A stretch of DNA of 64,000 nt, from the NCBI GenBank assembly GCA_018660685.1, contig JABJJW010000009.1, positions 1 through 64,000 of the forward strand. Direction: 5' to 3'. The first letter of the stretch is position 1, and every line of letters starts with the position of its first letter. This DNA comes from Flavobacteriales bacterium. GTDB lineage: Bacteria > Bacteroidota > Bacteroidia > Flavobacteriales_G > Salibacteraceae. The position numbers were made by a program, and so were the translations under genes. Positions 46,776-64,000 of the stretch are shown here, one piece after another. The notes beneath the pieces were generated by a model, which made no database searches, was not told where the DNA came from, and saw only the letters and a program-made list of their open reading frames with translations.

Positions 46776-49307
46776 TTGAGTTCTACGATTCTACCATTTT
46801 CGAGAAAAGCCATCCTGACTCATTCGAGCAGCATTGCCATTTTCATTGTCACAGCTATGTTGTACTGCTCACCCGTTCTTGAGGGCAAGAGAATAGTGCA
46901 AGATGATATTGTGAAGAACACTGCACAAAGCAAAGAGAGGTTAGATTTTTTCGAAGAAACAGGGGAAGAACCGTTGTGGACCAGTCGGGTGTTCAGCGGA
47001 ATGACCATGTTCAACATCGGGACTCGTTTTTCAGGGAATGGATTGATCTATCTCGATTCCTTAGTCCGAAAATGGCTTCCTGTGACTGTCAACATCATGT
47101 TTGTCACGATGCTCGGATTCTATTTGCTCATGATGGCACTTGGAATAAATCCATGGCTTTCAGTCGGCGGGGCTGTTGGCTATGCTCTGTCCTCAAACCT
47201 CTTGGTATCGCTGATGGCAGGACATAACACCAAGATTTTAACCATAGGCTATATGGGAATGGCGCTTGCTGGTCTATACATGGTCTTGAATTCGAAAAAA
47301 TATCTCGGAGCTACCCTCCTATCAATTGGCATGGGATTAATGGTACGCGCGAATCACCTCCAAATTCTGTACTATTTCATACTGCTTGGGCTGATTATCA
47401 GCATTGTTGAGTTGGTGAGAGCCTATCAAGAAAAGCGTCTTCCAGACTTTGCCAAAACAATCGGCCTCATTGCAATAGCAGGAATTATTGGAGCCCTTCC
47501 TGCTGCGGGAAAGGCGTATAACATTTATGCACACTCAGGCCCGACTATTCGAGGCGGTAATTCGGAGCTCTCGACGAAGAAAGAAGAGGACAAAGGTGGC
47601 CTCGACAGAGATTATGCCTGGCGTTGGTCCAATGGGCCTATCGAATCATTCACAATGGTCATTCCCAGCTTCATGGGAGGTTCCACTGGAGAAGCTCTTC
47701 CAAAAGACGGTAATGTTCAAAAAGAACTCCAGAAATTTCAGCTGAATAAACAGCAGAAAGAACAAATTCTTGGGAGAGCACCAATGTATGTTGGAAAGCA
47801 GCCCTTCTTGCTCGGAACAGTTTATGTCGGTTCAGCATTTATCCTCCTCTTCATATTTTCAATGTTCGTTGTAAAAGGGCCAATCAGACTCTGGGTAGGT
47901 ATTGCGACCGTGTTTTTCTTAATACTGAGTTTCGGAAGGCATTTTGAATTGATCAATGGCTTGCTCTTCGACTATCTACCAATGTTCAATAAATTCAGAA
48001 CTCCATCAATGGCATTGGCCATTCCGGGATTACTGATTCCATTTTTCGGACTGATAGGCCTAAATCTCGCGCTCAAAGGAGAACTTGAAGAAGCTGAATT
48101 CAAAAAAGCGCTGAAAATGACGCTGTATGTTGCAGGAGGAATTATGGCGTTGCTGTTGGTTTATGGTCTCACCAATGATTGGATTGGACCAAAAGACAGT
48201 CAATATCAGGGTGAGAATTCTCCTTGGGGTATTGACGGGGTGTATGAGGCACTCCTTGCAGATCGCAAAAGTCGATACATGACCGATTGGTTTCTCAGTC
48301 TAGTCATGATGGTTGGAGGTCTCGGTGTAATATGGGCTGGATACAAAAAGAAGATTTCGAATGTCCTAGTCTACGTTATCATTTTCCTCATTCTCGGAGG
48401 AGATAACTGGCGCGTCAGCAAACGATATCTGAACAATGACAAGTTTGAGAATCCACGCGATTATGAAAAGAACTTTGTTTCGAGTGCCGCAGATAAGTCA
48501 ATCCTTAAAGATGCAGACCCAAACTATCGCGTAATAAACATTACCCGTAACCCGTGGACAGATGGAATGACATGCTACCATCACAAAAACATTGGCGGCC
48601 ATCACGCGGCAAAATTGCAGCGATATCAAGAGTTGATAGAATACCAACTATCACCGCAACTACAAAAGCTTCAGGGTGGCTTGAGACAGGCAGGGGAGCG
48701 TGTGTTACTTGATCCCCAAGTAAGTGCTCAAATGCCAGTATACAATATGTTGAATACGAAGTACTTCATCCTTCGCCCCAATAACCCAATGGGTTTTGCT
48801 ACCAATCCTAGCGCTTGCGGAAATGCATGGTTTGTTAGTGAAATAGAGCAAGTTGGAAGTGCTCAAGATGAAATTCAAGCACTCGCAAACTTTAATCCGA
48901 ATGAAACGGCAATCGTTGAATCGGAATACAGTGAACAGCTTTATGGGTATTCATTCGGGAAATCAGATGATGCCAAAATTGAGTTGAACGAATTTCGCCC
49001 AAACCGAATCACTTACAGTTCGAATAATACAGAGGACGGACTTGCAGTGTTCTCTGAAATCTACTATCCTCTCGGATGGGAGGCATATGTTGATGACGCT
49101 CCAGCAGAAATTTATCGTGTTAACTATCTGCTCCGGGCCATCAAAATACCAGCAGGTAAGCACGAAGTGTTCATGATCTTTAAACCAGCGAGCTACTCTA
49201 TTGGGCAAGGTATTTCATTGGCTGGAACCATTTTGTTGGCCCTCTTCGCTGGTAGCATGATATATTTCTATCGAAAGCAAAGCCAAACGGAAGAGTCTGA
49301 AGCTTGA
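46776..49307 (+). CDS. YfhO family multi-pass membrane protein (GT-C-like)
   Basis: The 843-residue membrane protein has about 12-14 hydrophobic segments, an N-terminal loop SRVFSGMTMFNIG and a C-terminal soluble domain with EIYYPLGWEAYVDD, the YfhO signature. Family members are thought to act as GT-C glycosyltransferases moving a sugar from a lipid donor outside the cytoplasm, for example in teichoic acid or glycan decoration. It starts with TTG at 46776. Its stop overlaps the next glycosyltransferase's TTG start in TTGA, the first of several coupled junctions in the surface locus. Confidence 0.9.
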   Translation: MSSTILPFSRKAILTHSSSIAIFIVTAMLYCSPVLEGKRIVQDDIVKNTAQSKERLDFFEETGEEPLWTSRVFSGMTMFNIGTRFSGNGLIYLDSLVRKWLPVTVNIMFVTMLGFYLLMMALGINPWLSVGGAVGYALSSNLLVSLMAGHNTKILTIGYMGMALAGLYMVLNSKKYLGATLLSIGMGLMVRANHLQILYYFILLGLIISIVELVRAYQEKRLPDFAKTIGLIAIAGIIGALPAAGKAYNIYAHSGPTIRGGNSELSTKKEEDKGGLDRDYAWRWSNGPIESFTMVIPSFMGGSTGEALPKDGNVQKELQKFQLNKQQKEQILGRAPMYVGKQPFLLGTVYVGSAFILLFIFSMFVVKGPIRLWVGIATVFFLILSFGRHFELINGLLFDYLPMFNKFRTPSMALAIPGLLIPFFGLIGLNLALKGELEEAEFKKALKMTLYVAGGIMALLLVYGLTNDWIGPKDSQYQGENSPWGIDGVYEALLADRKSRYMTDWFLSLVMMVGGLGVIWAGYKKKISNVLVYVIIFLILGGDNWRVSKRYLNNDKFENPRDYEKNFVSSAADKSILKDADPNYRVINITRNPWTDGMTCYHHKNIGGHHAAKLQRYQELIEYQLSPQLQKLQGGLRQAGERVLLDPQVSAQMPVYNMLNTKYFILRPNNPMGFATNPSACGNAWFVSEIEQVGSAQDEIQALANFNPNETAIVESEYSEQLYGYSFGKSDDAKIELNEFRPNRITYSSNNTEDGLAVFSEIYYPLGWEAYVDDAPAEIYRVNYLLRAIKIPAGKHEVFMIFKPASYSIGQGISLAGTILLALFAGSMIYFYRKQSQTEESEA

Positions 49308-50590
49308 AAAAGGCCCTCATACTCACGTACTACTGGCCGCCAGGATCCGGCCCCGGAGTTCAACGATGGTTGAAATTTTGTAAGTACTTACCAGAATTTG
49401 GTTGGGACACGAAGGTGATCACTGTGAACAATGGAAGCTATCCAAGTGTCGATTCAAGCTTAGAAAATGATATTCCTGAGGGACTAGAAATCCACAAAAC
49501 CAAAACCATTGAACCTTTCGCCATTTACAATGCGCTGCGCGGTAAAAAAGGCAAATCAGTTGAAGTTGCACTAGCTAGTGTAAAGGGTAAACAAAGTCCT
49601 TTTTCCAAGTTTGCTAACTACGTTCGTTCCAACTATTTCATCCCGGATGCTCGGGTTGGTTGGAATACATATTCCTTTCCTAAGGCCATAGAATTAATAA
49701 AGAAGGATAGACCCGATGTCATTATTACGACAGGTCCGCCACACAGCACACACTTGGTTGGGCAACGACTTCATAAAATGTTTGATATTCCTTGGGTAGC
49801 TGATTTTCGTGATCCTTGGACTACGATTTATTACAATCAATTTCTTCTTCGAACGGACTCATCAATAAGAAAGGATAAAGCTTTAGAAGATCTGGTCCTA
49901 TCAGAGGCGAGTGCCCTGGTCACGGCGACTCCAGGAATGAAAGCAGAATATGAGGAAAGGGCGAATTCTGTTCAATTCCTAACCAATGGTTTTGACCAAT
50001 CGGATTTCCCCGAAGATATTTTACCACGCGAAGAAACATTTACCATCTCGTATGTCGGAAACTTCAAACCGATTCAAAACATTGAGATATTGTGGCAAGC
50101 ACTGAAGGACTTGAGCACTGAAGGCGCAAGTCTAAAACTTCAAATTACTGGCAATGTGGCTGAAGAAGTATCGAAGTCAATTCTAACCCATGGATTGGAC
50201 CACATGTTGGAGGTATTACCCTTCGTTCCTCATCATGAATCAATCAAACGAATGATGAGTGCACACATGTTGCTTCTCCCAATTCCGCAAGATGCAAGTA
50301 GTAAACTCATTCTCACTGGTAAGATATTTGAGTATTTGGCCACGCGCCGTCCAATTCTATCCATTGGTCCACCACACGGAAATGCATCAAGCATTCTCGA
50401 TGATTGTGAAAAAGAGTCCATGATTGACTACAAAGATCTTGAAGGTCTGAAGATGCAGATCAAGACTCAGTTAGACTTATGGAGTTCCGGTCAATATGAG
50501 CCTATATCTGGAAATGATAATTATACGAAGTACAGCCGAAAAGGCGTTACTGAGTCGCTTGCTCAATTATTGAATACGCTGGTAGAATGA
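49304..50590 (+). CDS. Glycosyltransferase, GT-B fold (GT4-like)
   Basis: The 428 residues begin with ALILTYYWPPGSGPGVQRWLKF, a common start of surface-polysaccharide glycosyltransferases. ITTGPPHSTHLVGQ, WVADFRDPW and a C-terminal donor-binding part with LTGKIFEYLATRRPIL follow. The sugar is unknown. It is coupled to YfhO by TTGA and to the formyltransferase fusion by ATGA. Confidence 0.9.
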   Translation: MKKALILTYYWPPGSGPGVQRWLKFCKYLPEFGWDTKVITVNNGSYPSVDSSLENDIPEGLEIHKTKTIEPFAIYNALRGKKGKSVEVALASVKGKQSPFSKFANYVRSNYFIPDARVGWNTYSFPKAIELIKKDRPDVIITTGPPHSTHLVGQRLHKMFDIPWVADFRDPWTTIYYNQFLLRTDSSIRKDKALEDLVLSEASALVTATPGMKAEYEERANSVQFLTNGFDQSDFPEDILPREETFTISYVGNFKPIQNIEILWQALKDLSTEGASLKLQITGNVAEEVSKSILTHGLDHMLEVLPFVPHHESIKRMMSAHMLLLPIPQDASSKLILTGKIFEYLATRRPILSIGPPHGNASSILDDCEKESMIDYKDLEGLKMQIKTQLDLWSSGQYEPISGNDNYTKYSRKGVTESLAQLLNTLVE

Positions 50591-51906
50591 GATGCGTTGT
50601 TATCGGTAGCAAAGAACTCGGATGTGTCATTGTCGATGAATTAGTTCGACAAAAACACAGCATTCCTCTCGTGATTACTCGCGACGATTCGCCTGGGATG
50701 GCATTGTGGCATAAAATGGGGCACCGATCGCTGAAAGAAGTGGCGACACGGCATGGCTTGAATGTTCTGGAAGGTGTCAAGGTTAATGACGACACAACAC
50801 TTAACGCTATTCGAGAAGCACGTCCCGATCTCATATTGTCTTGCTTCTGGAGCGATCTCTTTAAATCTGAAATTCTAATGATCCCTTCTCGAGGTGTATT
50901 TAACTTTCACACCGCATTTCTCCCAAAAAATCGCGGGTCAAGACCAATTCCTTGGGCGATGATTAACGGGGATGAGTTTACTGGAATCACCTTGCATCAA
51001 ATGCAATTAGGCGTTGATGACGGGCCAATTGTGGCCACCAAGAAAGTGGCCATCACCGACTCTGACACCGGCAAAACTATGTATGACAAAGTCATGCGCG
51101 AAGGCGTAAACTTGGTCACGGAAGTGATCGCGCTATTTGGAGAAGGCAAGGAGGTTTTGACACCACAAGAAGATGCTGATTCGACCTTCCATCTCCGAGG
51201 CGAACCATATGGTGGTCAATTCAACTACTTCTGGGATGAAACCAAAGTGGATCGTTTCAAACGGTCATTCATCTTCCCTCCCTTTCAGGCTCACAGAAAC
51301 CCACCGCAATCGAAGCAACTTAAGCAAGGCGTCTCCTTAATCGTGTCTTCAGAAAGATCAAGTGAATCATGGAATGAGCTAAGCGCTCAAAATCAATTCA
51401 CTCAAGATCTTCGTCCATATCAAATAGAGTCTGGTGGTGATTCAGCGATGCGTAAGGTCTTGAGGACTTGGAACCCAAAAGGCGGCGCTCAATTGTGTTA
51501 TTTTCCAACGCAGAAATCAGGCCTGGATGCGCATTATCCAATATTAGAATCCTTGATGCGGGGCGATTACCTGGCCAGCATTTCATCTCTTGAAACGTTA
51601 GACGGATCACCCGAAAGATGTCAACCTTTTCGATACGAGAACGGAATTCTTGAATTGCCTGTCAATTACGTTAATCCGTCAAAAGAAGAACTCCAATCTC
51701 ACCTCCACACAGCTCAGCGGTTCAGTGCCAAATATGATTGCACGTGCTACCTCCACATACTGTTAGATGAGCATTATGGCACGGATGATCACGAGCTGTT
51801 CACGAGAGAACTCTCACAACAAATTCAAAACAGCACGATATCATTAATGACTTATGGTGATGTTTGCGAAGAATTCAACACAGAATATGAAGACATCAGC
51901 GCTTGA
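50587..51906 (+). CDS. Formyltransferase-domain protein with NodB-like C-terminal part
   Basis: Residues 1 to about 200 are a formyltransferase domain with the catalytic Asn-His pair in FNFHTAFLP (N106, H108), the Arg/Gly loop KNRGSRPIPWAM and the Asp in GVDDGPI. This matches enzymes that transfer a formyl group from 10-formyl-THF to amino sugars. Residues about 230-439 look like a degenerate polysaccharide-deacetylase or related domain (FPTQKSGLDAHYP, LHILLDEHYGTDDHELF). I am unsure of that. The fusion may formylate and trim an amino sugar in one protein. It overlaps its neighbours on both sides. Confidence 0.8.
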   Translation: MRCVVIGSKELGCVIVDELVRQKHSIPLVITRDDSPGMALWHKMGHRSLKEVATRHGLNVLEGVKVNDDTTLNAIREARPDLILSCFWSDLFKSEILMIPSRGVFNFHTAFLPKNRGSRPIPWAMINGDEFTGITLHQMQLGVDDGPIVATKKVAITDSDTGKTMYDKVMREGVNLVTEVIALFGEGKEVLTPQEDADSTFHLRGEPYGGQFNYFWDETKVDRFKRSFIFPPFQAHRNPPQSKQLKQGVSLIVSSERSSESWNELSAQNQFTQDLRPYQIESGGDSAMRKVLRTWNPKGGAQLCYFPTQKSGLDAHYPILESLMRGDYLASISSLETLDGSPERCQPFRYENGILELPVNYVNPSKEELQSHLHTAQRFSAKYDCTCYLHILLDEHYGTDDHELFTRELSQQIQNSTISLMTYGDVCEEFNTEYEDISA

Positions 51907-52534
51907 GGCCTTTGATACTGTCCTCGTACTCGCACCACACACAGACGATGGTGAACTCGGCTGCGGCGGGACAATTCACAAACTAAAACAACTTGGAAAA
52001 AGGGTTGTTTATGCAGCATTCTCAACGTGTGAAGAGTCGGTGCCAGAAGGATTTCCGAAGGACGTTTTGACACATGAGGTTAAGGCGGCCACAAAAGAAT
52101 TAGGAATTCCGGAAGAGGACCTTATTATCCTCGACTATCAAGTCCGATACTTTCCACGGGATCGTCAAGCAATCCTCGAGGATATGGTCAAACTAAATAG
52201 AGAATTGAAACCGGACCTCGTTTTCTGTCCTTCATCATATGACATCCACCAAGACCATGGAACCATCAGCATGGAGGCCAAAAGGGCGTTTAAGAGCACC
52301 ACGCTACTTGGATATGAATTCATTTGGAATAATTTCCAGTTCTCATCACAGTCCTTCATTGAGCTAGATGAAGCCGATGTTGCAGCTAAAGTTGCGTCCA
52401 TGGAATGTTATAAGTCCCAATCAAAACGACTTTATGCGAAGGATAAGTTGATCAGAGGAATAGCAAATTATCGAGGGTTGCAAGCGCAAGTCGAATATGC
52501 TGAAGCTTTTGAAGTCATTCGTTGGATTATTTGA
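51887..52534 (+). CDS. PIG-L (LmbE) family deacetylase
   Basis: Zinc-dependent N-deacetylase, 215 residues from ATG 51887. The metal site is APHTDDGELGCGG, a variant of AHPDDE, with the second motif DIHQDHG. The family removes acetyl groups from GlcNAc-type sugars. The gene begins inside the end of the formyltransferase gene (20-bp overlap), and its stop overlaps the sulfotransferase ATG (TGATG). A free amine made here could be formylated by the upstream protein or amidated by the ATP-grasp system further on. Confidence 0.92.
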   Translation: MKTSALEAFDTVLVLAPHTDDGELGCGGTIHKLKQLGKRVVYAAFSTCEESVPEGFPKDVLTHEVKAATKELGIPEEDLIILDYQVRYFPRDRQAILEDMVKLNRELKPDLVFCPSSYDIHQDHGTISMEAKRAFKSTTLLGYEFIWNNFQFSSQSFIELDEADVAAKVASMECYKSQSKRLYAKDKLIRGIANYRGLQAQVEYAEAFEVIRWII

Positions 52535-53517
52535 TGGACACGCAGGCACATACCGTATTTCTGACTGGCACTGGCCGCTCGGGAACAAACATTTTAAAAA
52601 AGGTACTAGGCTCACACAGCAAAGCAGCATCACTGCCTTTCGAGTACAGATTCATCATTGACCCAGACGGCATCGTCGATTTTTACAATTCATATCCGGT
52701 TGTTTGGTCACCTTATCGTGCAGACAAGCAAATAAAAAGGCTCGAGTCATTTTTACTTGGTCTAGCTTCCCTTGATCTCGACAAAGAATCCAGAGCCGCG
52801 AAAGCATTATCTGCTGATCCGCAGGGCCTTGAGCTAACTCCACCTCCTTATAGTGGATGGGAGCTTGAAAAGTGGATTCCTGGATTTACAGAAGCTTCAA
52901 AACATTTGATCAATGACTTAAGCCAATTTGGATATTCTGCCGTCTGGCCCGGTTCCAAAGAAGGTGTGAATAGGAATGAGATGTATTTCCAAACGCCTAA
53001 GACGAAAGAAGAGCTCAAGCCAATAATTTCAGCTTATTTAAACTTCTGTCTCAACGCAATCGTCAATGCTCAGAATAAAGAAGTATTCATTGAAGACAAC
53101 ACTCACAACCTTCTTTTTGCCAATGATTTGCTGGAATTGGTTGATAATAGTAAAATGATTCACGTAATCCGAGATCCTCGGGACGTGGTAAGTTCGCTGA
53201 TTCAACAGCGTTGGGCACCAAAAGAATTAGAGAAAGCCATAGAATGGTACGGTGCTTTGATGGATCATTGGCTTGAAATTAGAAAGCATACGCCGAGTGA
53301 CAGGTTGCTTGAAATACGATTCGAAGACCTCATTCATCAAAGAGAGGAGACTTTGTCAGATGTATGCTCCTTTATCGGAATTGAAATCGAGCAGCCGCTT
53401 CGAGAAATTGATATGAGCAACCACCACATCGGACGTCATGAAAGCGATCTAAGCCTTGAGCAAATCAATTTGATGAACAATCGATTAGCTCGTATTATCG
53501 AAACGTATAATTATTGA
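52534..53517 (+). CDS. Sulfotransferase (PAPS-dependent), first of two
   Basis: The 327-residue protein has the 5'-phosphosulfate loop LTGTGRSGTNIL and the 3'-phosphate-binding IRDPRDVVSSLI, then RFEDLIHQREETL. These are standard for sulfotransferases acting on glycans or lipids. It is the last gene of the plus-strand operon. ATG 52534 is preferred to the TTG four codons earlier. Its 3' end overlaps the convergent second sulfotransferase by 7 bp; the two share the fold but little obvious sequence. Confidence 0.88.
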   Translation: MDTQAHTVFLTGTGRSGTNILKKVLGSHSKAASLPFEYRFIIDPDGIVDFYNSYPVVWSPYRADKQIKRLESFLLGLASLDLDKESRAAKALSADPQGLELTPPPYSGWELEKWIPGFTEASKHLINDLSQFGYSAVWPGSKEGVNRNEMYFQTPKTKEELKPIISAYLNFCLNAIVNAQNKEVFIEDNTHNLLFANDLLELVDNSKMIHVIRDPRDVVSSLIQQRWAPKELEKAIEWYGALMDHWLEIRKHTPSDRLLEIRFEDLIHQREETLSDVCSFIGIEIEQPLREIDMSNHHIGRHESDLSLEQINLMNNRLARIIETYNY

Positions 53518-54389
53518 TCCTCCAACCAGACTGGAAGCTTCTCACCGCTGTGTCTGAGTAAGCCCTTTACCTGACTTAAGTCCTGTTGGTAGTATTGTTT
53601 CAGTTTCTGCTCTGTTTCTGTGCTGATGTCCGAATCAAAAGGCTTCCCATTTATTGCATGGTAGAAGGATGTCAACCATCGCTTGAGCTTTGGACTGCGA
53701 TTCCAGAAACCTTGAAATCTTCGAAACACAGAAATTCCGATTGACTGCAACTGCGGATTTTTGAAGTCAACGCTTTCATTGTCACGCGTGAACTCGAAGC
53801 TTTCGTAGAATCCAGAGGCGATTCCGAGCCGTTCTGAAATCGACATCATCATGGATTTCGAATTCTTGAGATCGTCACTAAAGTGGATGGTCATGCGAGC
53901 CCCAAAATGGTCTTTCCACGTTACAAGGTCCTCGAAATAGAGACCGTCAACCAAGCCATTGTATACAGACTTATTCAATCTCACGCCCTGTTCCAGACAC
54001 TTATCTACATACTCAGCAAAACTCTCTCCATCAGGAATCTCGAGTCCGCGCTTTTTGTATTTGTAGAATGAATGCAATCTTTTCACTGGGTCACGAAGCA
54101 GTAGAATGATCTTCAAATCTGTTCCTAAGTATTGGTCCAGATATTTGAGATTTCCCGCGATGTCATGAAAGTAGCGAGGCGTTGATTCGAGAATAATTTT
54201 TTCGCCTTGATGGTTAAAATGTTTCAGATAGTCGTCAAGCCTAACATTGTTCCAATCCTCAACCCGATTCCAAAAGAAGGTTTCCTTCACATCAGCTCCG
54301 CATACATCAGGATGTGCACTTAGGTAATTGTGCATGGACGTGGTGCCTGCTTTATTCACTCCTGCTATGATCAGATTTGGTAGAGCCAT
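53511..54389 (-). CDS. Sulfotransferase (PAPS-dependent), second
   Basis: The 292-residue protein shows the heparan-type pattern: AGVNKAGTTSMHNYL (phosphosulfate loop), the substrate-side KETFFWNR and LLRDPVKRLHSFY (3'-phosphate loop). This is closer to the animal-like NDST/HS3ST branch than its convergent neighbour. It is the last gene of the six-gene minus-strand operon and starts in a TAATG overlap with the flippase stop. Confidence 0.9.
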   Translation of the reverse strand: MALPNLIIAGVNKAGTTSMHNYLSAHPDVCGADVKETFFWNRVEDWNNVRLDDYLKHFNHQGEKIILESTPRYFHDIAGNLKYLDQYLGTDLKIILLLRDPVKRLHSFYKYKKRGLEIPDGESFAEYVDKCLEQGVRLNKSVYNGLVDGLYFEDLVTWKDHFGARMTIHFSDDLKNSKSMMMSISERLGIASGFYESFEFTRDNESVDFKNPQLQSIGISVFRRFQGFWNRSPKLKRWLTSFYHAINGKPFDSDISTETEQKLKQYYQQDLSQVKGLLRHSGEKLPVWLEDQ

Positions 54390-55882
54390 TACAGTTTTAT
54401 CCCCACCTTTTTCAAACTCAGCAAAACCATTTCTTTAAGATCCTCTGAAAATCGCATCCGCATCACGATAAAAACAAACATTACCAAGATTAGAGCTGAT
54501 CTCATTACAATATTGATCAAGGGATAGTCAAACTCGATTGGCACGAGCCATGCGACAAAGAAGATCAAACTCAACCAAATGAGTGCGTACAGATTATCCA
54601 CTTTGAATGGCTGCATTTTCAGCTTAACCCAAACGAATAGAAAGAGTAACAAATTGTTGGATAGAATGGAAATTGAAGTGGCCAGTGCAGCGCCAGTAAT
54701 ACCATAAATGGGTATGAAGTAGAGGTTTGTAATTATTGCTGTAACGACCAACAGCAAACGGATTGCCAATGAGTATCGATAATGATCCGAGACAAGCAGG
54801 ATTTCATTGTTTATACCGGTTGCAGAGCTAAATATCTTGGCCAATCCAATAAAGAAAACGACCCAAACTCCCTGTCTAAACACATCCCCATTTGGTATAA
54901 GGTCGAAGAGGTCTTGAATATTCAACCAAACGAGCGTAAAAATCAATCCTGAGGCTATGAATTGGTTCAAGCTAGTCCTGTGGTAGATGTCTCGAATGTT
55001 GGCCATGTTCCCATTTTTCCAAGAATTAGAAATTACAGGAACGGATATCTGTGTAATTGATTTCCGAGGAAGTTCGATGACATTTCCCAGGGCTAATGCA
55101 ATGGCGTAAATACCTGTCGCGCCAAGACCAGCCAATGAACTAATCATCCAGCTGTCAATTTTTATAATCATTGAGCCTGAGAGAACGTTGAGAATTGCGA
55201 ACAGACCATAAGAAAAGACCTCTCTGCGCTTCTCTTTATCGATAGCCTTGAAATTGGAATTAATGCGAACGGTGTTTCGACTCAAATACGATATGATCAT
55301 CGAAATGAATACTAGCGCGTAGGTTAGTATAAAGAGATAGACCAACCATTGCACGCCAAGATCGAGGTAGAAATAGACCAGGACCGTCGTGATGTAGCCA
55401 AGGCGAAGAAAAATTGACTCATAGAAATTGGAAATAGTGATGTTAAACTCTGAACGGAAATACGCTCGAATCAACTTCGCACCACTGATCATGAAAATGA
55501 GTGCAGGCAGCCAATCGATGTATTCTACAAGCAAAGGCGAGTTAGACGCCACCGTGCTTATTAGAAACGGTTTCAAGATATAAAACACGCCCAATCCAAG
55601 GACTGCTCCTAGACCTGGGATGAGCATTGAAAGCAGTTGAAAGGCACCCAACTGGTCAGGAGAGTTTTTAAAGTAGGGATGATACTTTACGTAGGTGTTT
55701 TGCACACCGAGCAGCATAAACGGAACAATGATACCGGACAAGTCAAGCAAGACCCGAATTAGGCCGATTTCTTCCGTAGCCAGATACTTTGGATAAACGA
55801 AAAGTGAGAGGACAAATCCAAGTACAATACCCAGATAAATCACCACGCTGCTTAATGCTCCCTCTCTACGTATTATTCCCAT
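54389..55882 (-). CDS. Oligosaccharide flippase (Wzx/MATE-like)
   Basis: The 497 residues form about 12-14 membrane helices of the polysaccharide-transport (MVF) superfamily. It moves a lipid-linked glycan across the inner membrane. Motifs are weak, but the N-terminal GALSSVVIYLGIVLGF and the charge pattern fit. One base separates it from the deacetylase stop. No Wzy polymerase or Wza/Wzc export genes are in the window. Confidence 0.9.
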   Translation of the reverse strand: MGIIRREGALSSVVIYLGIVLGFVLSLFVYPKYLATEEIGLIRVLLDLSGIIVPFMLLGVQNTYVKYHPYFKNSPDQLGAFQLLSMLIPGLGAVLGLGVFYILKPFLISTVASNSPLLVEYIDWLPALIFMISGAKLIRAYFRSEFNITISNFYESIFLRLGYITTVLVYFYLDLGVQWLVYLFILTYALVFISMIISYLSRNTVRINSNFKAIDKEKRREVFSYGLFAILNVLSGSMIIKIDSWMISSLAGLGATGIYAIALALGNVIELPRKSITQISVPVISNSWKNGNMANIRDIYHRTSLNQFIASGLIFTLVWLNIQDLFDLIPNGDVFRQGVWVVFFIGLAKIFSSATGINNEILLVSDHYRYSLAIRLLLVVTAIITNLYFIPIYGITGAALATSISILSNNLLLFLFVWVKLKMQPFKVDNLYALIWLSLIFFVAWLVPIEFDYPLINIVMRSALILVMFVFIVMRMRFSEDLKEMVLLSLKKVGIKL

Positions 55883-55883
55883 T

Positions 55884-57149
55884 TTACTTGGATGCGTATT
55901 GCTGGAAAATTTCTTCCTGATTAATTGGTCGTATATCGTTATTCCTACAGAAATCTAACATCGCCCGATATACTTCGAGGTAACCGTCAAACTTCATGTT
56001 TGTGAAATATTTATTGTGCCATAAAACAGAGATGATCGCGTCCTCTTTATGCTTGTCCAAAAGCTCAACCAAGGTAGTTTGCAAACCTGATAAGTCCTGT
56101 TTCCTATACGTCCAGTTGCTTGTATCCATTACCATAAGCGGAACATGCAATGCCCTACATTGTTCTCCTCGATTGATGTCAAATGGTCGAATCGGAAGTG
56201 CGTAGTTATTTCTTAAACCAAATTCTTCCGCAAAGCCAAGAGAGAAATCAATCTCGAGAGGACTGGCGTCAACTTTTGAAAAATGCTCCGGAATTTGAAG
56301 CCTTAGGTAATGGTTCCTATTAGAAATTGTTTTGAATGGAAGAGCTTCTAATTCCGTTGAAAAGCTCTCAGAATTCACTGATTTATGGAGTCCTTGATGA
56401 AAACCGCGAGAGGCAATTTTTTGAATAATTGATTGAGTTCTCGAACTTGAGATTTGATAATCCCCGTTGCTGAGTGTTCTATTTTTTAGCGGCGTGGGAC
56501 GATTATTGGCGATCCAGAAGAACGTGCTTTTCAAATCATACTCATCATTAATGTCCATCATCTGATCCATGTTCATCCATCTGGGATTTCGCATGATTTC
56601 ACTCCACACGATTTGAAGCAGCCAATCCAATCGCCCCTTCTTCAAGGCGTAAAACCCATCTTTCGTGAAACTTCCATACAGACTATCGTTATCATGAGAC
56701 ACGAAAAGACGGGAAGGCTTGGTACCGACTTTTTTTGAATACTGTTCTTCAACAAATTCTCTGAATAGGTTGAGCACCTGATTCTCGGTGCAAACACCAA
56801 AGCGTGCTTGATAACTCTTCGCAAAAGGAAATCTTCCAAGATCGTCTTGGTCCACGGCTCCAACTTCTTGGAAGTAGTTGAGCATGTAAACGATGGTTGA
56901 AAGCCGGTCTATTGTGTCGTCTTCCCGATTTACGAAACCGTTTTCTCCTAAAATTTCATGATGAGAAAAACTGCGTTTCGAAAAATTATCATTGAAGCTA
57001 GATGAAACGAGATAGTTTCCAGATTCTGGGGTCAAGCCTACCTCCAAAGCATCCAATTCAACCGAATGATTTGCATTCAGCTGGTTGAGGCTCACTTCTA
57101 TAGCCTTTGAAAAGGCAGGATCAATTCGAGAATCAAATGATAGTTTCAA
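55884..57149 (-). CDS. NodB-like polysaccharide deacetylase family protein
   Basis: The 421-residue product has an N-terminal extension (about 1-130) and a NodB-type barrel: motif 1 variant FVSHDNDSLYG, motif 2 variant FHQGLHKS and LEIDFSLGFAEEFGLRNN...PF, as seen in Bacteroidota surface-polysaccharide loci. The canonical TFDD is altered, but His and Asp remain, so deacetylase activity is plausible and not certain. Its TTG start overlaps the ATP-grasp stop in TTGA. Confidence 0.82.
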   Translation of the reverse strand: MKLSFDSRIDPAFSKAIEVSLNQLNANHSVELDALEVGLTPESGNYLVSSSFNDNFSKRSFSHHEILGENGFVNREDDTIDRLSTIVYMLNYFQEVGAVDQDDLGRFPFAKSYQARFGVCTENQVLNLFREFVEEQYSKKVGTKPSRLFVSHDNDSLYGSFTKDGFYALKKGRLDWLLQIVWSEIMRNPRWMNMDQMMDINDEYDLKSTFFWIANNRPTPLKNRTLSNGDYQISSSRTQSIIQKIASRGFHQGLHKSVNSESFSTELEALPFKTISNRNHYLRLQIPEHFSKVDASPLEIDFSLGFAEEFGLRNNYALPIRPFDINRGEQCRALHVPLMVMDTSNWTYRKQDLSGLQTTLVELLDKHKEDAIISVLWHNKYFTNMKFDGYLEVYRAMLDFCRNNDIRPINQEEIFQQYASK

Positions 57150-58327
57150 TGAATGTCGACCTTTCTATTCTTACCGAGTACCAATTGTACTATTCGCAAA
57201 GGAAGTTCATAAATCATATAAATCACCCATGGCATGATGTCCTTGGAATCAAAGAATGCGTGAGCTTCAGAAGCAAGGCTCGATCGGACCATCGACCTCA
57301 GGCTCACATTCCGATTGAGAATGAAATTGTAGATGAAGTCCTCCACGAAATAATACCATTCACCTTGGTCAATCTTGTTGAGTTGAGGCGACGATGGTTT
57401 TTCTCCCCTCGCTGCGTCCAAAGTAATCATGGGAAGGTTGACACCAGCGTACTGAGCGAGCGAATGCCAGCTCCAAGATCTTGGATTCATTTCGATGACA
57501 TAAAAGTCATCTTCATACTTTTTGTACTCAATTTGAGCAATGCCTGAGTAGTTGAGCTCAGAAATGATCTTCTCGGAATAATCAACTAGCTTTTGGTCAA
57601 AAACGATTTCAGCCAGAGTCGCTTGACCTGCCTTAGGCGGGTATTGTCTCACCTTTCTTCCGGTGAAGCACCCCAACAATTTCCCATCCCAAGCTGCAAT
57701 ACCAGCAGTGAAGAGCTCGTCATCTCCCCCAGGAATGAATTCCTGAAGGATGTAAGGTGACAATTTAGACTCCAATTCCGCAATGAACTTGCTTGCTACC
57801 TGAGCGTTCTCGCAGAGTTTGACTTTGAATAATCCTTTCGAAAGGTTGTCGGTTGCTCTTCTGTTGTCTGGCTTAATGATAACCGGCCATGTAACCGTTC
57901 CATTTTCAACATCACTTTTCGAAAACTGCTTCGGCTGTGGAATGCTTATGTGATTTACGAAATCCGCAAACTGGAGCTTGTTCGAAATCTTATTTAGTAC
58001 CGTGACATCCGTTTCGTAAAGTGCTTTAAAGTCTGATAAGAGACTTTGATTCTCTGCAAGAAGCTGAACGTACTCATCATTTACAGGAAGTAGATATAGA
58101 TCATCATCTGAAAAATCAGATGCAATTTGAACAAGGCCTTGAACCAGTGCTTTGGGGTCCTTCCCTGGTTTGGGAAATTTGTATCGTTTGTATACGTACT
58201 TAGAATATTGGCCTGCCTTAGCCCAATGATGATCCACGGCAATAACTTTGCATCCAGCTTTCCCTAAGGATCGGATAGACGCTAAGCCGTTTCGGTTACA
58301 GTCTATTATGACAACTGTTGGCTTCAT
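57146..58327 (-). CDS. ATP-grasp carboxylate-amine ligase
   Basis: The 393-residue protein begins with a Rossmann-like part (VVIIDCNRNGLASIRSLG), followed by an ATP-grasp domain: WPVIIKPDNRRAT, YILQEFIPGGDDELF, and metal ligands in YVIEMNPRSW. Such enzymes activate a carboxylate as acyl phosphate and join it to an amine. The C-terminal part (from about 330) is hydrophobic and may associate with the membrane. It follows the histidine phosphatase with no spacing and overlaps the deacetylase gene, so its substrate is probably made by the ComA-like enzyme and phosphatase. Confidence 0.88.
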   Translation of the reverse strand: MKPTVVIIDCNRNGLASIRSLGKAGCKVIAVDHHWAKAGQYSKYVYKRYKFPKPGKDPKALVQGLVQIASDFSDDDLYLLPVNDEYVQLLAENQSLLSDFKALYETDVTVLNKISNKLQFADFVNHISIPQPKQFSKSDVENGTVTWPVIIKPDNRRATDNLSKGLFKVKLCENAQVASKFIAELESKLSPYILQEFIPGGDDELFTAGIAAWDGKLLGCFTGRKVRQYPPKAGQATLAEIVFDQKLVDYSEKIISELNYSGIAQIEYKKYEDDFYVIEMNPRSWSWHSLAQYAGVNLPMITLDAARGEKPSSPQLNKIDQGEWYYFVEDFIYNFILNRNVSLRSMVRSSLASEAHAFFDSKDIMPWVIYMIYELPLRIVQLVLGKNRKVDIH

Positions 58328-58855
58328 TTAATCCACTTGCATCGTGATCAATTTCCCATTCTCCACAATGCGTTCGTTCATCCCTGTAAGAGATCCTGAG
58401 TTTATGATTGAGATCAATCCCCGAATGAATGCACCATGGGAAACGATCAAAATGATCGGATTCATTTCATACTTCTCTAAAAAAAGCCTAATTCTTATCT
58501 CCAGTTGTTCAAACTCTCCTTTCAGATCACTAGCCAAAGGATCACCCAACCATGAATCTGACATCTCATCCAACATTTGAGTTTTTGGCAACCCTTCAAA
58601 TCTTCCAAAACTCATTTCGCTGACGAGGGGTTCGATGGAATAGTCCAAGCCTAATCGATCAGCAGTTTGTACCGCTCTTTTTAGTGGACTGACCAAAACC
58701 AAATCTGGTTTTACCTGTTCTAGCTCATCTGAAATACTTGCAATTAAGCTGTTATTCAAGGCATCCGACTCAAGCAGTTCGATGTCGGTGAGTCCTTGCA
58801 TCAAACCCTCATCGTTCCAAGATGTTCTTAAATGCCTAATGGCGTGGATGGTCAT
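58328..58855 (-). CDS. Histidine phosphatase family protein
   Basis: The 175-residue phosphatase has the catalytic His in IRHLRTSWN (residue 8; the usual RHG is RHL here), the middle acid in SEMSFGRFEGL and the second His in VSHGAFIRG. The family removes phosphate from small metabolites. It is locked between the ComA-like gene (TAATG overlap) and the ATP-grasp gene (0 bp), so phospho-sulfolactate or a related compound is the natural guess for its substrate, replacing the unrelated ComB. Confidence 0.9.
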   Translation of the reverse strand: MTIHAIRHLRTSWNDEGLMQGLTDIELLESDALNNSLIASISDELEQVKPDLVLVSPLKRAVQTADRLGLDYSIEPLVSEMSFGRFEGLPKTQMLDEMSDSWLGDPLASDLKGEFEQLEIRIRLFLEKYEMNPIILIVSHGAFIRGLISIINSGSLTGMNERIVENGKLITMQVD

Positions 58856-59595
58856 TATTTCAGGAAGAAGGTTTCGCTTCTCAGTCCTTGACGTTGGGCT
58901 TCAAGCAATGCAAGGTCTAGAGGGTTTACATTACCAAGGTTCACATTGGGTCCAACTTCGTTGATGAAATACATCTGAAGTGATGTAGCCGGTGCTTCAA
59001 AGATCAAGCGCTCTGGATCAGTTTGACTAATAATATCCGCTACAAGCCCAGTTCTTAGTTCTCCACTCGGTCTATAAATACCCGCTGTTCCACTATCCCT
59101 TCCCTCCGTAATTACATATTCCGCTCCTACCTCAAAAAGCATGTTGATTTCTTTGATCCACTCAGATGGAGGCATCACTTTCTCTTTGTCCTTTGACCCA
59201 ACCTCGGATAAAACTGTAAACTCAGACTTCAGATCATCTACCATTCTGCAGCGATCATCTATAGAAATATCCACTGTTCCGGTCGAGATTTCCAACATGT
59301 CAATTTTGTGCTTTCTTAAAAAATCTAGGTATTCGTTGAACTTATTTTGAGCGTAAAACTTCTCAAATAGAGTTCCTCCGAAATAGACCTGAATATCATG
59401 CTTGCGGTAGAGTTCGATTTTGGCATCCAAATTCGGAAGAATGTAAGCCACACCGACACCCAGCTTTGCCACATCTAAGAATATTCCGTAGTCCTCGAGA
59501 ACATTGGCAAGCTCTCCAGTACTTAACCTCGTGTCGTTGACAGCAGTAATTCCTGTCTTCCTTGGTTTTACTGTCCTGACCGGTGTATCTAGCAT
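58855..59595 (-). CDS. Phosphosulfolactate synthase family protein (ComA-like)
   Basis: ComA joins sulfite to phosphoenolpyruvate, giving (R)-phosphosulfolactate. The product shows the family layout: KPRKTGITAVND at the start, FLDVAKLGVGVAY, YFGGTLFEK, MLEISTGT, SEVGSK, the YVITEGRDSG segment, and the ending NLGNVNPLDLALLEAQRQGLR. From ATG 59595 it has 246 residues, which suits the family; the ORF extends to a TTG at 59646 (263 aa). It heads a six-gene coupled operon and is divergent from the PLP-enzyme operon. Whether sulfite is the true nucleophile cannot be read from sequence, since paralogues of unknown activity exist. Confidence 0.88.
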   Translation of the reverse strand: MLDTPVRTVKPRKTGITAVNDTRLSTGELANVLEDYGIFLDVAKLGVGVAYILPNLDAKIELYRKHDIQVYFGGTLFEKFYAQNKFNEYLDFLRKHKIDMLEISTGTVDISIDDRCRMVDDLKSEFTVLSEVGSKDKEKVMPPSEWIKEINMLFEVGAEYVITEGRDSGTAGIYRPSGELRTGLVADIISQTDPERLIFEAPATSLQMYFINEVGPNVNLGNVNPLDLALLEAQRQGLRSETFFLK

Positions 59596-59703
59596 GATTA
59601 AGCGTTTTGACAAATATCCGAATAATCCAGCTCCAAACGTGCTCAAAACAGTTAACTCAGATGAAAAATGATTGGGTATTTATAGGTTACTTTGCACCAT
59701 AGT
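59596..59703. other. Divergent promoter region of the two accessory operons
   Basis: These 108 bp separate the ComA-like start from the PLP-enzyme start. On the plus strand TTACTTTG (about 59688-59695) is one mismatch from TAnnTTTG. On the minus strand TTTG and TATTTG lie about 18 bp apart upstream of ATG 59595. Shared control of both operons is likely, but no operator is obvious. Confidence 0.35.
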
Positions 59704-61110
59704 ATGGAAACAGCTACCCGAAAAATGACTTTCGAAGAGGCGTTAGTGTCTGGTGGGGATGAACGTCTAGATTTGGATGAAAATGGGTTAAACAAATACT
59801 TCGTCAATCCAACCCAAGGCTCAGGAGTGTTCAATCGAGGGTCTTGCACTTGTTCATTCATAACGGAGGATGCAAAAATTCCTACCCATTCACTTTACGA
59901 AAAGCTTAATCAAAATCCAGACTACTCGGAGCTATACGAATCTCTGAGTTTAAGAATCAAGTCTGCGTTGGAGGAAGGCACCGAACCTTTCGAAGTTTAC
60001 TTGGCGCCAAGCGGCAGTGACCTTTGTTATTTTCCGCTGCTCTTTTCAGCGACCATTCAACCTGAAAAGCCTATTCTAAATGTAGTCACTTGCCCTGAGG
60101 AGTTAGGGTCGGGTTCTGTCCTTGCCTACAAAGGGAATTTTTTCTCCCAGAAAACTCAAATAGAGAAAGTGGAATTATCTGAGCCACTCAATAAGAGTAT
60201 TCCAATTGAGTTCATCTCTTTTCCAGCCCGTGATGAACATGGGGTCATCCTCGATCACAATGAACAAATCATTGAATGCATCACTGAACACCAAGAATCT
60301 CACAACGTAATCGTGAACTTGGTGATTGGGTCTAAGTCTGGAATTGAAGACAACCTATCCATAGTTGAAGAATGTCAGCACCTGAATGTTAAGTGGGTCG
60401 TAGACATCTGTCAGTTGAGGGTTTCAAGAGCTCTTATTCAGAGGCTACTGGCACTCAATTGCAGTCTTTTGGTGACGGGGTCAAAATTCTATCAAAGCCC
60501 TCCATTCTGCGGTGCGTTAATCGTACCCGGCAGTCTTCAAAAACAAATTGACGCATCAACTGCGGATCCAGAGGTGACCAAAGGGTTTGATCGTGTTTTC
60601 ACTTGCTTCGACTTTCCAAAGAATTCGATTTATAGACCGTACTTCCAAGAAAAGGGAAATCATGGACTCTTGCTTCGTTGGGAAGCTGCCCTGTATGAAT
60701 TTGAGGCTATTTCTGCCTACACGGAGAGTGAGGTTATTCGAATAGTTTCCAAATGGAACATTACTATTCAAGACCATATGATCTCTCGGCCAGATGTCTT
60801 TGAGCTCATGAGTGATCAGGACAAAACCAATAAGTCTATTATCTCCTTCCGAATTAAAAAAGAAGGAATTTATCTCAGTCATGAGGAATTAAAAAGCTTG
60901 TACAAGCGGCTTTGCCTCGAAGGCAGTAAATGGATGCCCCAATATGACACTGTCACAATTGGCCAACCGGTGGCATACACATCTGGTTCGTTCCTCCGAG
61001 TGGCCTTAGGATCATTCAATGTTCGTCAATTGATGAGCAAGGACGTTAATCTTGACGAAGACATACAAATCTTAGAGACTTTGGAGGCCATCCTACACGA
61101 GTCCGCTTAA
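59704..61110 (+). CDS. PLP-dependent enzyme, fold type I (aminotransferase class V-like)
   Basis: The 468-residue protein has the fold-type I layout. The Asp that contacts the pyridine nitrogen is in KWVVDICQLR, and the Schiff-base lysine appears to be in LLVTGSKFYQSPPFCGALIVP (short motif TGSKFYQ). The family is diverged: I cannot tell aminotransferase from desulfurase, lyase or decarboxylase. From ATG 59704 it overlaps the next gene in TAATG. Its place beside a PLP decarboxylase and an Asn-synthetase-like protein suggests amino-acid building-block synthesis. Confidence 0.75.
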   Translation: METATRKMTFEEALVSGGDERLDLDENGLNKYFVNPTQGSGVFNRGSCTCSFITEDAKIPTHSLYEKLNQNPDYSELYESLSLRIKSALEEGTEPFEVYLAPSGSDLCYFPLLFSATIQPEKPILNVVTCPEELGSGSVLAYKGNFFSQKTQIEKVELSEPLNKSIPIEFISFPARDEHGVILDHNEQIIECITEHQESHNVIVNLVIGSKSGIEDNLSIVEECQHLNVKWVVDICQLRVSRALIQRLLALNCSLLVTGSKFYQSPPFCGALIVPGSLQKQIDASTADPEVTKGFDRVFTCFDFPKNSIYRPYFQEKGNHGLLLRWEAALYEFEAISAYTESEVIRIVSKWNITIQDHMISRPDVFELMSDQDKTNKSIISFRIKKEGIYLSHEELKSLYKRLCLEGSKWMPQYDTVTIGQPVAYTSGSFLRVALGSFNVRQLMSKDVNLDEDIQILETLEAILHESA

Positions 61111-62345
61111 TGCGACTTCAATCAAATAGAGCATTAGAGCTATTCAACACAGCGCAGTCCGATGGATTGATCGAAGAATTGGATACAACCATCATTTTCT
61201 ATGACTTGGACATTCTTGAGCAGAGATTGAAAACTGTCCGCTCTGCATTTGGTCCTAGTTATAAACATAGTGTTGCGATCAAGTCGAACCCTTTGTCGAA
61301 GGTCCTTGAATACATCAGCAAAAATGAGAATGGATTAGAAGCGGCATCGTTCGAAGAGCTCTGTCTCGCCAATAATCAAGAACCTTCGTTTACGGTCTGG
61401 GATAGTCCGGTAAAAACGAAGGCAGAAATCATCGAAGCGGAAAAAATGGGTGGCGTACTGATCAACGCTGACAGCCTCGATGAACTTGAGTTGATTCTGG
61501 CACATACGGCTCAGTCAAAAATTGGACTAAGGATCAATCCGCAAGTGAATACAGGTAGCCATGGCTCCATGAGTGTGTCAGGTCAATATTCCAAGTTCGG
61601 TGAACCCATTGCGAATCGCGCCTCCATCATCGAAGCGATTTTAAGGCACCCCAAAAGAATAACGGCTCTACACGTCCATTCCAGCTCGCAAACAACCGAT
61701 TACGATCGACTTTGCAATGCCATTCGTTCTGTTGTGGATTTAGCCAATGAAATCAATCAAGTCTCTGCTGCTCAGATCGAGACCATTGACATAGGTGGTG
61801 GATTTCCCGTAAGCTATGAAGCCGCAAGGGATTTCGACATCGCAGACTATGCTGAAAAGTTAAAAGAAACCTGCCCTGAGCTCTGGAATGGAACGTATCA
61901 GGGAATCACCGAGTTTGGAAGATATTACCATGCCAATGCTGGTTTCACAGCAACCCGCATCGAAGGCTCAAAAGGAGATTCCGAGAATCAAACAATCATT
62001 ACGCATGCTGGTGCAGACCTCTTTTTGAGAGAGGCGTACAATCCTGGGGTGTGGCCTCATGAGTATTCCGTGATAAGAGCTGGTAACGAGGTTAAACAAA
62101 CGTTGATCAGAACAGACATTGGCGGTCCGCTATGTTTCGGAGGAGATTACATTCAAAAAGAAGTTCTGCTTCCAAAATGCCAGCAAGGCGACTGGTTATT
62201 TGTGCTCGATACTGGGGCAAATTCATTTGCGCTTTGGTCACGACATTGCAGCAGGTCTTTTCCAAAGGTCATTGGGTTCGATGGAAAAGCTCAAATATTC
62301 AAAAAGCGCGAATCCATTGAATCTATAATTGGGTTTTGGTCTTAA
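61110..62345 (+). CDS. PLP-dependent decarboxylase, fold type III (LysA/ornithine decarboxylase-like)
   Basis: The 411-residue enzyme shows the PLP lysine in HSVAIKSNP, the glycine loop TIDIGGGFP, and near the C-terminus IGGPLCFGGDY with the acid-active Cys and Asp, then DTGANSFALWSRH. The family decarboxylates diaminopimelate, ornithine, arginine, lysine or carboxynorspermidine. The specificity loop does not match one of these clearly. Neighbours make a housekeeping LysA role unlikely; decarboxylation of a pathway-specific amino acid is favoured. Confidence 0.85.
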   Translation: MRLQSNRALELFNTAQSDGLIEELDTTIIFYDLDILEQRLKTVRSAFGPSYKHSVAIKSNPLSKVLEYISKNENGLEAASFEELCLANNQEPSFTVWDSPVKTKAEIIEAEKMGGVLINADSLDELELILAHTAQSKIGLRINPQVNTGSHGSMSVSGQYSKFGEPIANRASIIEAILRHPKRITALHVHSSSQTTDYDRLCNAIRSVVDLANEINQVSAAQIETIDIGGGFPVSYEAARDFDIADYAEKLKETCPELWNGTYQGITEFGRYYHANAGFTATRIEGSKGDSENQTIITHAGADLFLREAYNPGVWPHEYSVIRAGNEVKQTLIRTDIGGPLCFGGDYIQKEVLLPKCQQGDWLFVLDTGANSFALWSRHCSRSFPKVIGFDGKAQIFKKRESIESIIGFWS

Positions 62346-62360
62346 ACTCTTCAGGTTGAA

Positions 62361-64000
62361 ATGATCGGATATTCTGGCATATATCATAGAGACAAAAGCT
62401 GGTCGCCATCCGACGATGATCATTTGACAGAGATGATCAACCAGCTCCAAGGAACCTCGGCATTGGAGCCATTAATTACTGAGTTTGAAAGCCACGGAAG
62501 ATGTGCAATGAAGATTGCGTCAATCGACCCAAGGTCACCGATGATCACCAAAGAAAATGAGGTTCGAAAGTTGTGTTTGTTTGGCGAATTGTACCCTCAG
62601 TCCACGGCGAATTCCCTTTTGGAAGCAGTGCTTGCCGATGACAGTGAGAATTTGACTTCTAGTATTCAGGATTTGAACGGAGCATTCAATCTCATTGTCT
62701 ACGACAAAACCAATTCTCAAGTCAAGATATTCAGGGACATTGGAGGAGTAAAAGCTTGCTTCTACCATGACAATGGACAGGAGGTGATTTTTTCGTCGGG
62801 GCTCCGGTCGGTAGCAAAATCATCACTTTACCGAGATAAACAAGTGGACACAAAAGGGCTATGGCTCAACCTTGCTTACCCTGCACCTCCACAGCCGCTC
62901 ACCGCATTCAAAGACATTTCTTGTCTCGAACGAGGAAGCCGTCTTTCGATAAATTCCACGGTAACAACCGACCATTACTGGACTATTCCTTCGAGGGATA
63001 TTGATATAGGTATGGACTTCAACTACGCTGTAGAGCGAGTGCATTCGACATTAACTGATGCAACATCCGATCGTGTTCAAGGAATTCAGAATCTAGGATC
63101 AACGCTCAGTGGAGGGGTTGATTCTGCCTATCTCTCTGCTCTAGCGTTCCAGAATAATGAGCACACGGAGGCATACACCTTTAAGCTCGCAGGAGAAGAG
63201 TACAGCCAATTGAATGAAGATGATGTTGCCGCTTTAACTGCACGGAAGTATGGCATGAAACATCACATAAAATCCTTTGTGTATGATGACTTCATGGAAG
63301 ATTTCCAAACGCTCATCAAACTGTACGAGCAGCCTGGTATCTCCATCGGAGCCTACTATAGTATTGCGAAACTGGGGCATCAGCTTGGATACTCGCATGT
63401 TGTGAATGGACTGGCCGGAGATGAGCTCTTTGGGGGATTTCATTTCTTCAAGCATCTCAGCTATTGGCCTCTTTTACGACTTCTCTCCCCAGTTGCCTCG
63501 CTCGTTCCTTCCAATAGAACAAAAGGTATTGACAAGTTCATCAAAGTGGCTGGGGCGGGATCGATTGATGAGTATTACTCTCGTGCATTTGCTATCTATC
63601 TCGACAAGGAATTGAAGAACGTGTTCAACAACCTGTACTTCAGTGCTCTTGACGCTCAGCAAGAGCTGTACAATCCTCGGCGAGAACCATTCAAGGATAG
63701 CATTTCTGGGTTGATGCACTACATGTTTAGCAACTGTCCGAATCACCACATCTACAGGTTCGAATCATTTTCGAATCACTTCGGAATTCAACCGTTGTAT
63801 CCATTTCTGGATAATAATGTGATTGAGCATGCATTTAAAGTTCCTTCTCGTTTCAAAGTGAAGGGCCACAAACGCAAAATTGTTTTAAAACAGGCCGCGG
63901 CTCCGTATGTCGTGCAACCCGCACTCACTGAAAACAAACGCGGCGTCGGAGCTCCAGTAAATAGCTGGATGAATACCCATCTCAAAGACATCAAAGAGGA
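62361..64000 (+). CDS. Asparagine-synthetase-like ATP-dependent amide-forming enzyme, partial (runs off the window)
   Basis: Absent from the ORF track because no stop is reached before 64000. The frame from ATG 62361 stays open for 546 codons. An N-terminal Ntn-type domain (MIGYSGIYHRD, aligning with the usual MCGI start) lacks the nucleophilic Cys2. The synthetase domain has the ATP pyrophosphatase loop LGSTLSGGVDSAYLS and GLAGDELFGG. Such Cys-less homologues include beta-lactam synthetase and lasso-peptide cyclase, which join or cyclise amides without glutamine. It probably forms an amide in the accessory pathway; the substrate is unknown. Confidence 0.88.
   Translation, partial: MIGYSGIYHRDKSWSPSDDDHLTEMINQLQGTSALEPLITEFESHGRCAMKIASIDPRSPMITKENEVRKLCLFGELYPQSTANSLLEAVLADDSENLTSSIQDLNGAFNLIVYDKTNSQVKIFRDIGGVKACFYHDNGQEVIFSSGLRSVAKSSLYRDKQVDTKGLWLNLAYPAPPQPLTAFKDISCLERGSRLSINSTVTTDHYWTIPSRDIDIGMDFNYAVERVHSTLTDATSDRVQGIQNLGSTLSGGVDSAYLSALAFQNNEHTEAYTFKLAGEEYSQLNEDDVAALTARKYGMKHHIKSFVYDDFMEDFQTLIKLYEQPGISIGAYYSIAKLGHQLGYSHVVNGLAGDELFGGFHFFKHLSYWPLLRLLSPVASLVPSNRTKGIDKFIKVAGAGSIDEYYSRAFAIYLDKELKNVFNNLYFSALDAQQELYNPRREPFKDSISGLMHYMFSNCPNHHIYRFESFSNHFGIQPLYPFLDNNVIEHAFKVPSRFKVKGHKRKIVLKQAAAPYVVQPALTENKRGVGAPVNSWMNTHLKDIKE

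Follow-up and report, generated by a model that had tools for sequence, protein, structure and literature searches.

A possible sulfolactate production and attachment cassette in a surface-glycan locus of a Flavobacteriales bacterium

Results

Gene order of the locus

The DNA analysed in this study (the window) is a stretch of 64,000 nt from a Flavobacteriales bacterium of the Salibacteraceae (contig JABJJW010000009.1, assembly GCA_018660685.1), whose genome (labelled G000) is 2.58 Mb in size, 96% complete and carries a single ComA copy. A surface-glycan operon of six genes lies on its minus strand, and the first three encode a ComA-like (2R)-phospho-3-sulfolactate synthase, a histidine phosphatase of branch 1 (HisP) and an ATP-grasp ligase. 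Our results make it fairly probable that these three genes form a cassette that produces sulfolactate and attaches it within a surface-polysaccharide locus.

The original prediction described the genes at 57146-59595 as translationally coupled, and the junctions read as it described them: ComA and HisP overlap by TAATG (AAATAATGACC), and 0 bp separate HisP from the ATP-grasp gene (GATTAAATGAAG). The ATP-grasp gene then overlaps the gene of a VimE-like deacetylase by TTGA, and the flippase and sulfotransferase that had been placed downstream in the same operon were confirmed by their Pfam matches (Table 1). The mechanically called ComA open reading frame begins at a TTG at 59646; we took the gene from the ATG at 59595, which gives a protein of 246 aa.

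Table 1. Position and assignment of the genes in and around the module
Feature	Position	Strand	Basis
ComA-like (2R)-phospho-3-sulfolactate synthase, HisP-associated clade	58855-59595	-	PF02679, 1u83/1qwg matches, invariant residues, tree
Histidine phosphatase branch 1 (HisP), RHL signature, proposed phosphosulfolactate phosphatase	58328-58855	-	PF00300, pairing with ComA
ATP-grasp ligase, proposed sulfolactate activation and joining to amine	57146-58327	-	PF15632, PRK06849-like, module clade, Foldseek
VimE-like deacetylase homologue (DUF7033 region), possible amine-exposing step	55884-57149	-	NCBIfam VimE 38.8 bits
Wzx-type flippase	54389-55882	-	PF01943
Sulfotransferase, final gene of the operon	53511-54389	-	PF00685
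Second sulfotransferase, convergent, of the adjacent glycan operon	52522-53517	+	PF13469
Adjacent glycan operon: YfhO-like, glycosyltransferase, ArnA-like formyltransferase, PIG-L deacetylase	46776-52534	+	

Distribution of the module

Within the genus of the window, the ATP-grasp gene was found in 3 of 13 genomes, each time in the order ComA-HisP-ATP-grasp with overlapping or abutting ends. The ComA, HisP and ATP-grasp proteins of G088 (locus L034) share 72, 47 and 46% identity with those of the window, and the corresponding values for UBA1993 (L045/L048) are 71, 50 and 48%. This ATP-grasp was found nowhere else in the order, and a search of 295 Bacteroidia at E ≤ 1e-35 returned it in the window genus only. 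In a sample of the phylum, the same order was present in G573, which belongs to another class of Bacteroidota (L050/L092; ComA 58%, HisP 29%, ATP-grasp 31%). The three-gene order, whose conservation the original prediction had left to comparison, is thus kept in relatives of the window genus (L034, L045) and in a second class (L092). Chance adjacency is ruled out by the recurrence of the pairing in four glycan loci and in 40-odd loci of Bacillaceae. The patchy spread would be expected if a cassette for the surface glycan travels by horizontal transfer. ComA of the window type was found at E ≤ 1e-60 in no other genome of Bacillota outside the Neobacillus family (sample of 349), and the ComA genes on plasmid records were all of other types (≤41% identity in the rows read), the ATP-grasps there being generic.

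The ComA-like synthase belongs to a separate clade

The window ComA matched PF02679 with an E-value of 5.7e-78 and 262.1 bits (curated cut-off 25.2). Its closest solved structure was that of Bacillus subtilis (1u83, 1.8e-54), and 1qwg was matched as well. Using invariance across an alignment of 113 sequences as a proxy for ligand contacts, we found that the protein keeps all 27 invariant columns, including Mj K43, E79, E103, E133, K137, E168, R170 and E205. It suggests that the enzyme very likely makes phosphosulfolactate.

The maximum-likelihood tree united the window protein, those of G088 and UBA1993, the glycan-locus copy of G573 and a group from Bacillaceae in a single clade (support 100/99), which was separate both from the core ComA group of Bacteroidota and from YitD. 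Of 295 Bacteroidia, 243 carry a ComA-like gene, almost always as a single copy, and outside the window genus the encoded proteins show 40-47% identity to the window ComA (rows read). Neither HisP nor ComB was found beside any of the 52 core Bacteroidia ComA genes examined; the three family members with a core ComA that were checked (G004, G121 and G210) carry ComB elsewhere in the genome. Simple relocation of a core Bacteroidota ComA into the glycan locus is ruled out by the tree and by the genome of G573, which holds both kinds, one in the glycan locus and a separate core copy. Of the 194 genomes in the Neobacillus family, 73 gave a total of 75 ComA matches, which were counted by hand as 56 of the window kind (63-100% identity to the Neobacillus ComA) and 19 of the YitD-like kind (37-44%).

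HisP accompanies this clade in place of ComB

The window HisP matched PF00300 (E-value 1.1e-23, 84.3 bits). The catalytic residues R7, H8, R60, E80 and H140 are invariant in the five module HisPs, and all 51 HisPs that are paired with ComA have RHL instead of the usual RHG.

The partner gene followed the ComA clade closely. Among the loci that were fetched, HisP lay directly downstream of window-kind ComA in 45 of 46 and ComB in none, whereas YitD-like ComA had ComB beside it in 12 of 13 and HisP in none. The only exception among the 46 is a second module-type copy in a Bacillaceae genome (G681, L093), which has no HisP neighbour. When the genomes of the Neobacillus family were compared by hand, ComB was present in all 19 with YitD-like ComA and adjoined it in 18; it lay within 5 kb of none of the 56 window-kind genes and was missing genome-wide from 33 of the 54 genomes that carry them. 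Fisher tests on the partner counts gave extreme values, but they ignore relatedness; what matters here is that the partner changes with the ComA clade. No ComB (PF04029) match was found in G000, G088, G307 or Neobacillus G677.

The common unit in Bacillaceae was ComA-HisP-CysH-Sat-CysC, and some members had only ComA-HisP or ComA-HisP-CysH. Neobacillus PS3-12 carries the Bacillaceae unit and has no ComB. The B. subtilis yitCD and yitBA-yisZ genes, which have been inferred to serve phosphosulfolactate synthesis (PMC517825), likewise combine a ComA homologue and a phosphatase with PAPS (3'-phosphoadenosine 5'-phosphosulfate) reductase, ATP sulfurylase and APS (adenosine 5'-phosphosulfate) kinase. 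The difference is that YitC is a ComB, the place of which is taken by HisP in the window clade, and that the glycan loci add the ATP-grasp gene. It was documented that sulfolactate makes up 5% of the dry weight of B. subtilis spores (PMC517825), and by analogy the Bacillaceae unit is probably an unrecognised spore-sulfolactate operon. A divergent major facilitator superfamily transporter gene stands very often upstream of this unit (L046 9995-13823, L095-L101, L143-L148); it could serve sulfonate export or import.

Because HisP is paired with this ComA clade, stands in a yit-like gene set in Bacillaceae and occurs where ComB is absent, we consider that it is very probably the phosphosulfolactate phosphatase. 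The earlier suggestion that a phosphatase of this kind replaces ComB is therefore strongly supported by the sulfate-assimilation operons of Bacillaceae and by the absence of ComB. No description of a histidine phosphatase acting on phosphosulfolactate was found in the literature, most subscription papers lying outside the search.

The ATP-grasp ligase was found only in the glycan loci

The window ATP-grasp matched PF15632 (ATPgrasp_Ter, E-value 4.9e-9) and is also PRK06849-like. Its core residues K152, E267, E279 and N281 are invariant in all four module enzymes, which formed one clade (support 98/97) in a small tree of 11 rows. Foldseek matched the predicted model to 2pn1, PylC and biotin carboxylases, with PylC among the top matches, which shows the fold and not the substrate. 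PylC and other ATP-grasp carboxylate-amine ligases thus share the fold and the core with the window enzyme, but the identity over the fold alignments is only 17-18%. A sequence search of the PDB gave weak carboxylase matches only.

All four glycan loci with the module contain the ATP-grasp gene, and it was not seen beside the ComA-HisP pairs of Bacillaceae. These pairs probably yield free sulfolactate, as in B. subtilis spores (PMC517825). The glycan loci might likewise make free sulfolactate, as an osmolyte, a sulfur store or a precursor of sulfonolipid or cysteate; the ATP-grasp would then do an unrelated job in the glycan, for instance the coupling of an amino acid to a uronic acid, and the adjacency would reflect an insertion hot spot. 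Relatives of the ATP-grasp outside the module do occur without ComA, as this explanation would have it. However, we regard it as unlikely, as the three genes overlap or abut in four loci of two classes, the ATP-grasps of the module loci form one clade, and in L092 a dedicated PAPS reductase gene follows the ATP-grasp gene. There is also no ComC homologue for onward oxidation: ComC (PF02615) gave no match in G000, G088, G307, G051 or G573, which makes oxidation by this route unlikely, although other 2-hydroxyacid dehydrogenases lay outside this search. Sulfolactate therefore seems to be the acid put to use, and the ATP-grasp probably acts on it.

Glycan context, amine source and sulfite supply

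The original prediction proposed that the ATP-grasp could join sulfolactate to an amine, and the context favours this part: the ligase is found only in glycan loci, ComC is missing, and a deacetylase or an aminotransferase is encoded nearby. In the window genus, the VimE-like deacetylase gene adjoins the ATP-grasp gene or is one gene away in loci of the Wzx/Wzz type (window, L034 and L045). In L092, the gene run consists of a DesI-like sugar aminotransferase, ComA, HisP, the ATP-grasp and a PAPS reductase, surrounded by rmlA/B/C, a flippase and a glycosyltransferase in an O-antigen-type cluster. The aminotransferase scored 256 bits, under its equivalog cut-off, and the PAPS reductase exceeded its NCBIfam cut-off. 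The deacetylase of the window had been called NodB-like; no NodB Pfam match was found for it, and its nearest named relative is VimE, far under the cut-off of that model (NF053580, 440 bits). The G088 deacetylase scored 125 bits with the same model.

In the Wbp/Vim linking-sugar pathway of Porphyromonas gingivalis and Tannerella forsythia, VimE has been proposed to expose an amine that is then acylated with a small acid (serine or glycine); in P. gingivalis it is the C-2 amine that would receive serine (PMC7468200). There the amino acid is added by VimA, a putative relative of N-acetyltransferases, whereas here the proposed acylator is the ATP-grasp and the acid is sulfolactate. Because the pattern of an amine-exposing and an acid-attaching enzyme equals the VimE case of P. 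gingivalis, an N-sulfolactyl sugar is our best guess for the product.

Enzymes of the ATP-grasp superfamily can make esters as well as amides, and the acceptor is not fixed by the sequence. The activated sulfolactate might accordingly be joined to a hydroxyl as an ester, to a thiol, or to the amine of a lipid or an amino acid and not to that of a sugar. We consider such acceptors quite unlikely in view of the amine-making genes at or near the module, namely the VimE-like deacetylase in the window, L034 and L045 and the DesI-like aminotransferase in L092. For an amide with an amine of the surface glycan we see about an even chance, and we infer from this context both that the bond is an amide and that a sugar is the acceptor.

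There are no cys genes beside the module in the window locus. A CysH-like gene is present in the window genome, so a sulfite supply exists.

Neighbouring genes

The ArnA-like formyltransferase and the PIG-L deacetylase follow each other in the adjacent glycan operon at 50587-52534 on the plus strand, and a third sulfotransferase gene lies just past the end of the window (contig 64139-65170; L032 4139-5170, minus strand). From the formyltransferase, the deacetylase and this third sulfotransferase, the glycan of the window seems to be heavily modified.

The divergent operon at 59692-63998 (plus strand) encodes an enzyme like those of fold I dependent on pyridoxal phosphate (without a Pfam match), a decarboxylase-like protein resembling diaminopimelate/ornithine decarboxylases (TIGR03099-like), and a TIGR03108-like amidotransferase that resembles AsnB and is of the kind known from XrtA/PEP-CTERM loci and from P. 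gingivalis WbpS. We considered this operon as a part of the pathway, for example from sulfopyruvate through cysteate to taurine, and rejected it, as its homologues are absent beside the module in L034, L045 and L092.

Discussion

In the mechanism that we propose, ComA would add sulfite from the PAPS reductase of the cell to phosphoenolpyruvate and form phosphosulfolactate, from which HisP, in the role of the unrelated ComB, would strip the phosphate to give 3-sulfolactate. The ATP-grasp would activate the carboxylate of sulfolactate with ATP and couple it to an amino group on a sugar carried by a nucleotide or a lipid, the bond most likely being an amide. The acceptor amine would be exposed by the VimE-like deacetylase in the window genus or made by the sugar aminotransferase in the other class of Bacteroidota, and the flippase would export a glycan bearing a permanently charged C-sulfonate decoration. 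The archaeal coenzyme M pathway, ComA-ComB-ComC-ComDE (PMC5695019), has the same first step and the same logic of a synthase followed by a phosphatase. It differs in that the window genome lacks homologues of ComB and ComC, and here the pathway appears to end at sulfolactate.

Several observations weigh against this interpretation. The module in a glycan context is known from four genomes only. The ATP-grasp family is broad, the model of the enzyme is of moderate confidence (predicted local distance difference test 73.5, from a four-sequence alignment), and its matches to biotin carboxylases are about as good as the one to PylC. The resemblance of the window deacetylase to VimE is weak (NF053580, 38.8 bits against the cut-off of 440). 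The window ComA scored 203.7 bits with TIGR03849, under the equivalog cut-off of 280, in a model that describes archaeal enzymes. The assignment to the ComA family, which the original prediction had made, stands on the PF02679 match and the retained residues, but the neighbouring motif has changed. The K-F-G-W-G-T-S of characterised enzymes reads KLGVGVA in the window protein, and throughout the HisP-associated clade K-x-G-[WF]-G-T-[SA] is replaced by K-x-G-[IVM]-G-x-A, near the invariant K43. This altered GWGTS motif is where the ComA assignment is most vulnerable, and the substrate could have changed with it.

As the aromatic residue of the motif is lost clade-wide beside K43, these enzymes might take a different nucleophile or a different phosphorylated enol as acceptor, and the product would then be a related acid instead of sulfolactate. 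We judge this to be very improbable. Every invariant residue of the ComA alignment is retained, and a PAPS reductase gene belongs to the gene run of L092. Moreover, since the motif-changed Bacillaceae members occupy sulfite-producing operons with PAPS reductase, ATP sulfurylase and APS kinase, sulfite likely remains the nucleophile of the HisP-associated clade.

The ComA family and the sulfolactate pathway are known, and the end product, a sulfolactyl glycan, is possibly new; no description of such a glycan was found in the literature, most subscription papers lying outside the search. Taken together, we tentatively propose a new class of surface glycan with N-linked 3-sulfolactyl groups, made by ComA and HisP and attached by the ATP-grasp, and with it the HisP family as a second, non-homologous phosphosulfolactate phosphatase in Bacteroidota and Bacillaceae.

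If this is true, the chemical repertoire of bacterial surface glycans would be extended by an organosulfonate, together with the enzyme set that makes it. The sulfolactate pathway would have a second, unrelated phosphatase, and sulfolactate-producing Bacillaceae that lack ComB could be recognised from their genomes. Microbial sulfur cycling uses sulfolactate as a substrate, and a glycan-bound pool of it would be a new source.

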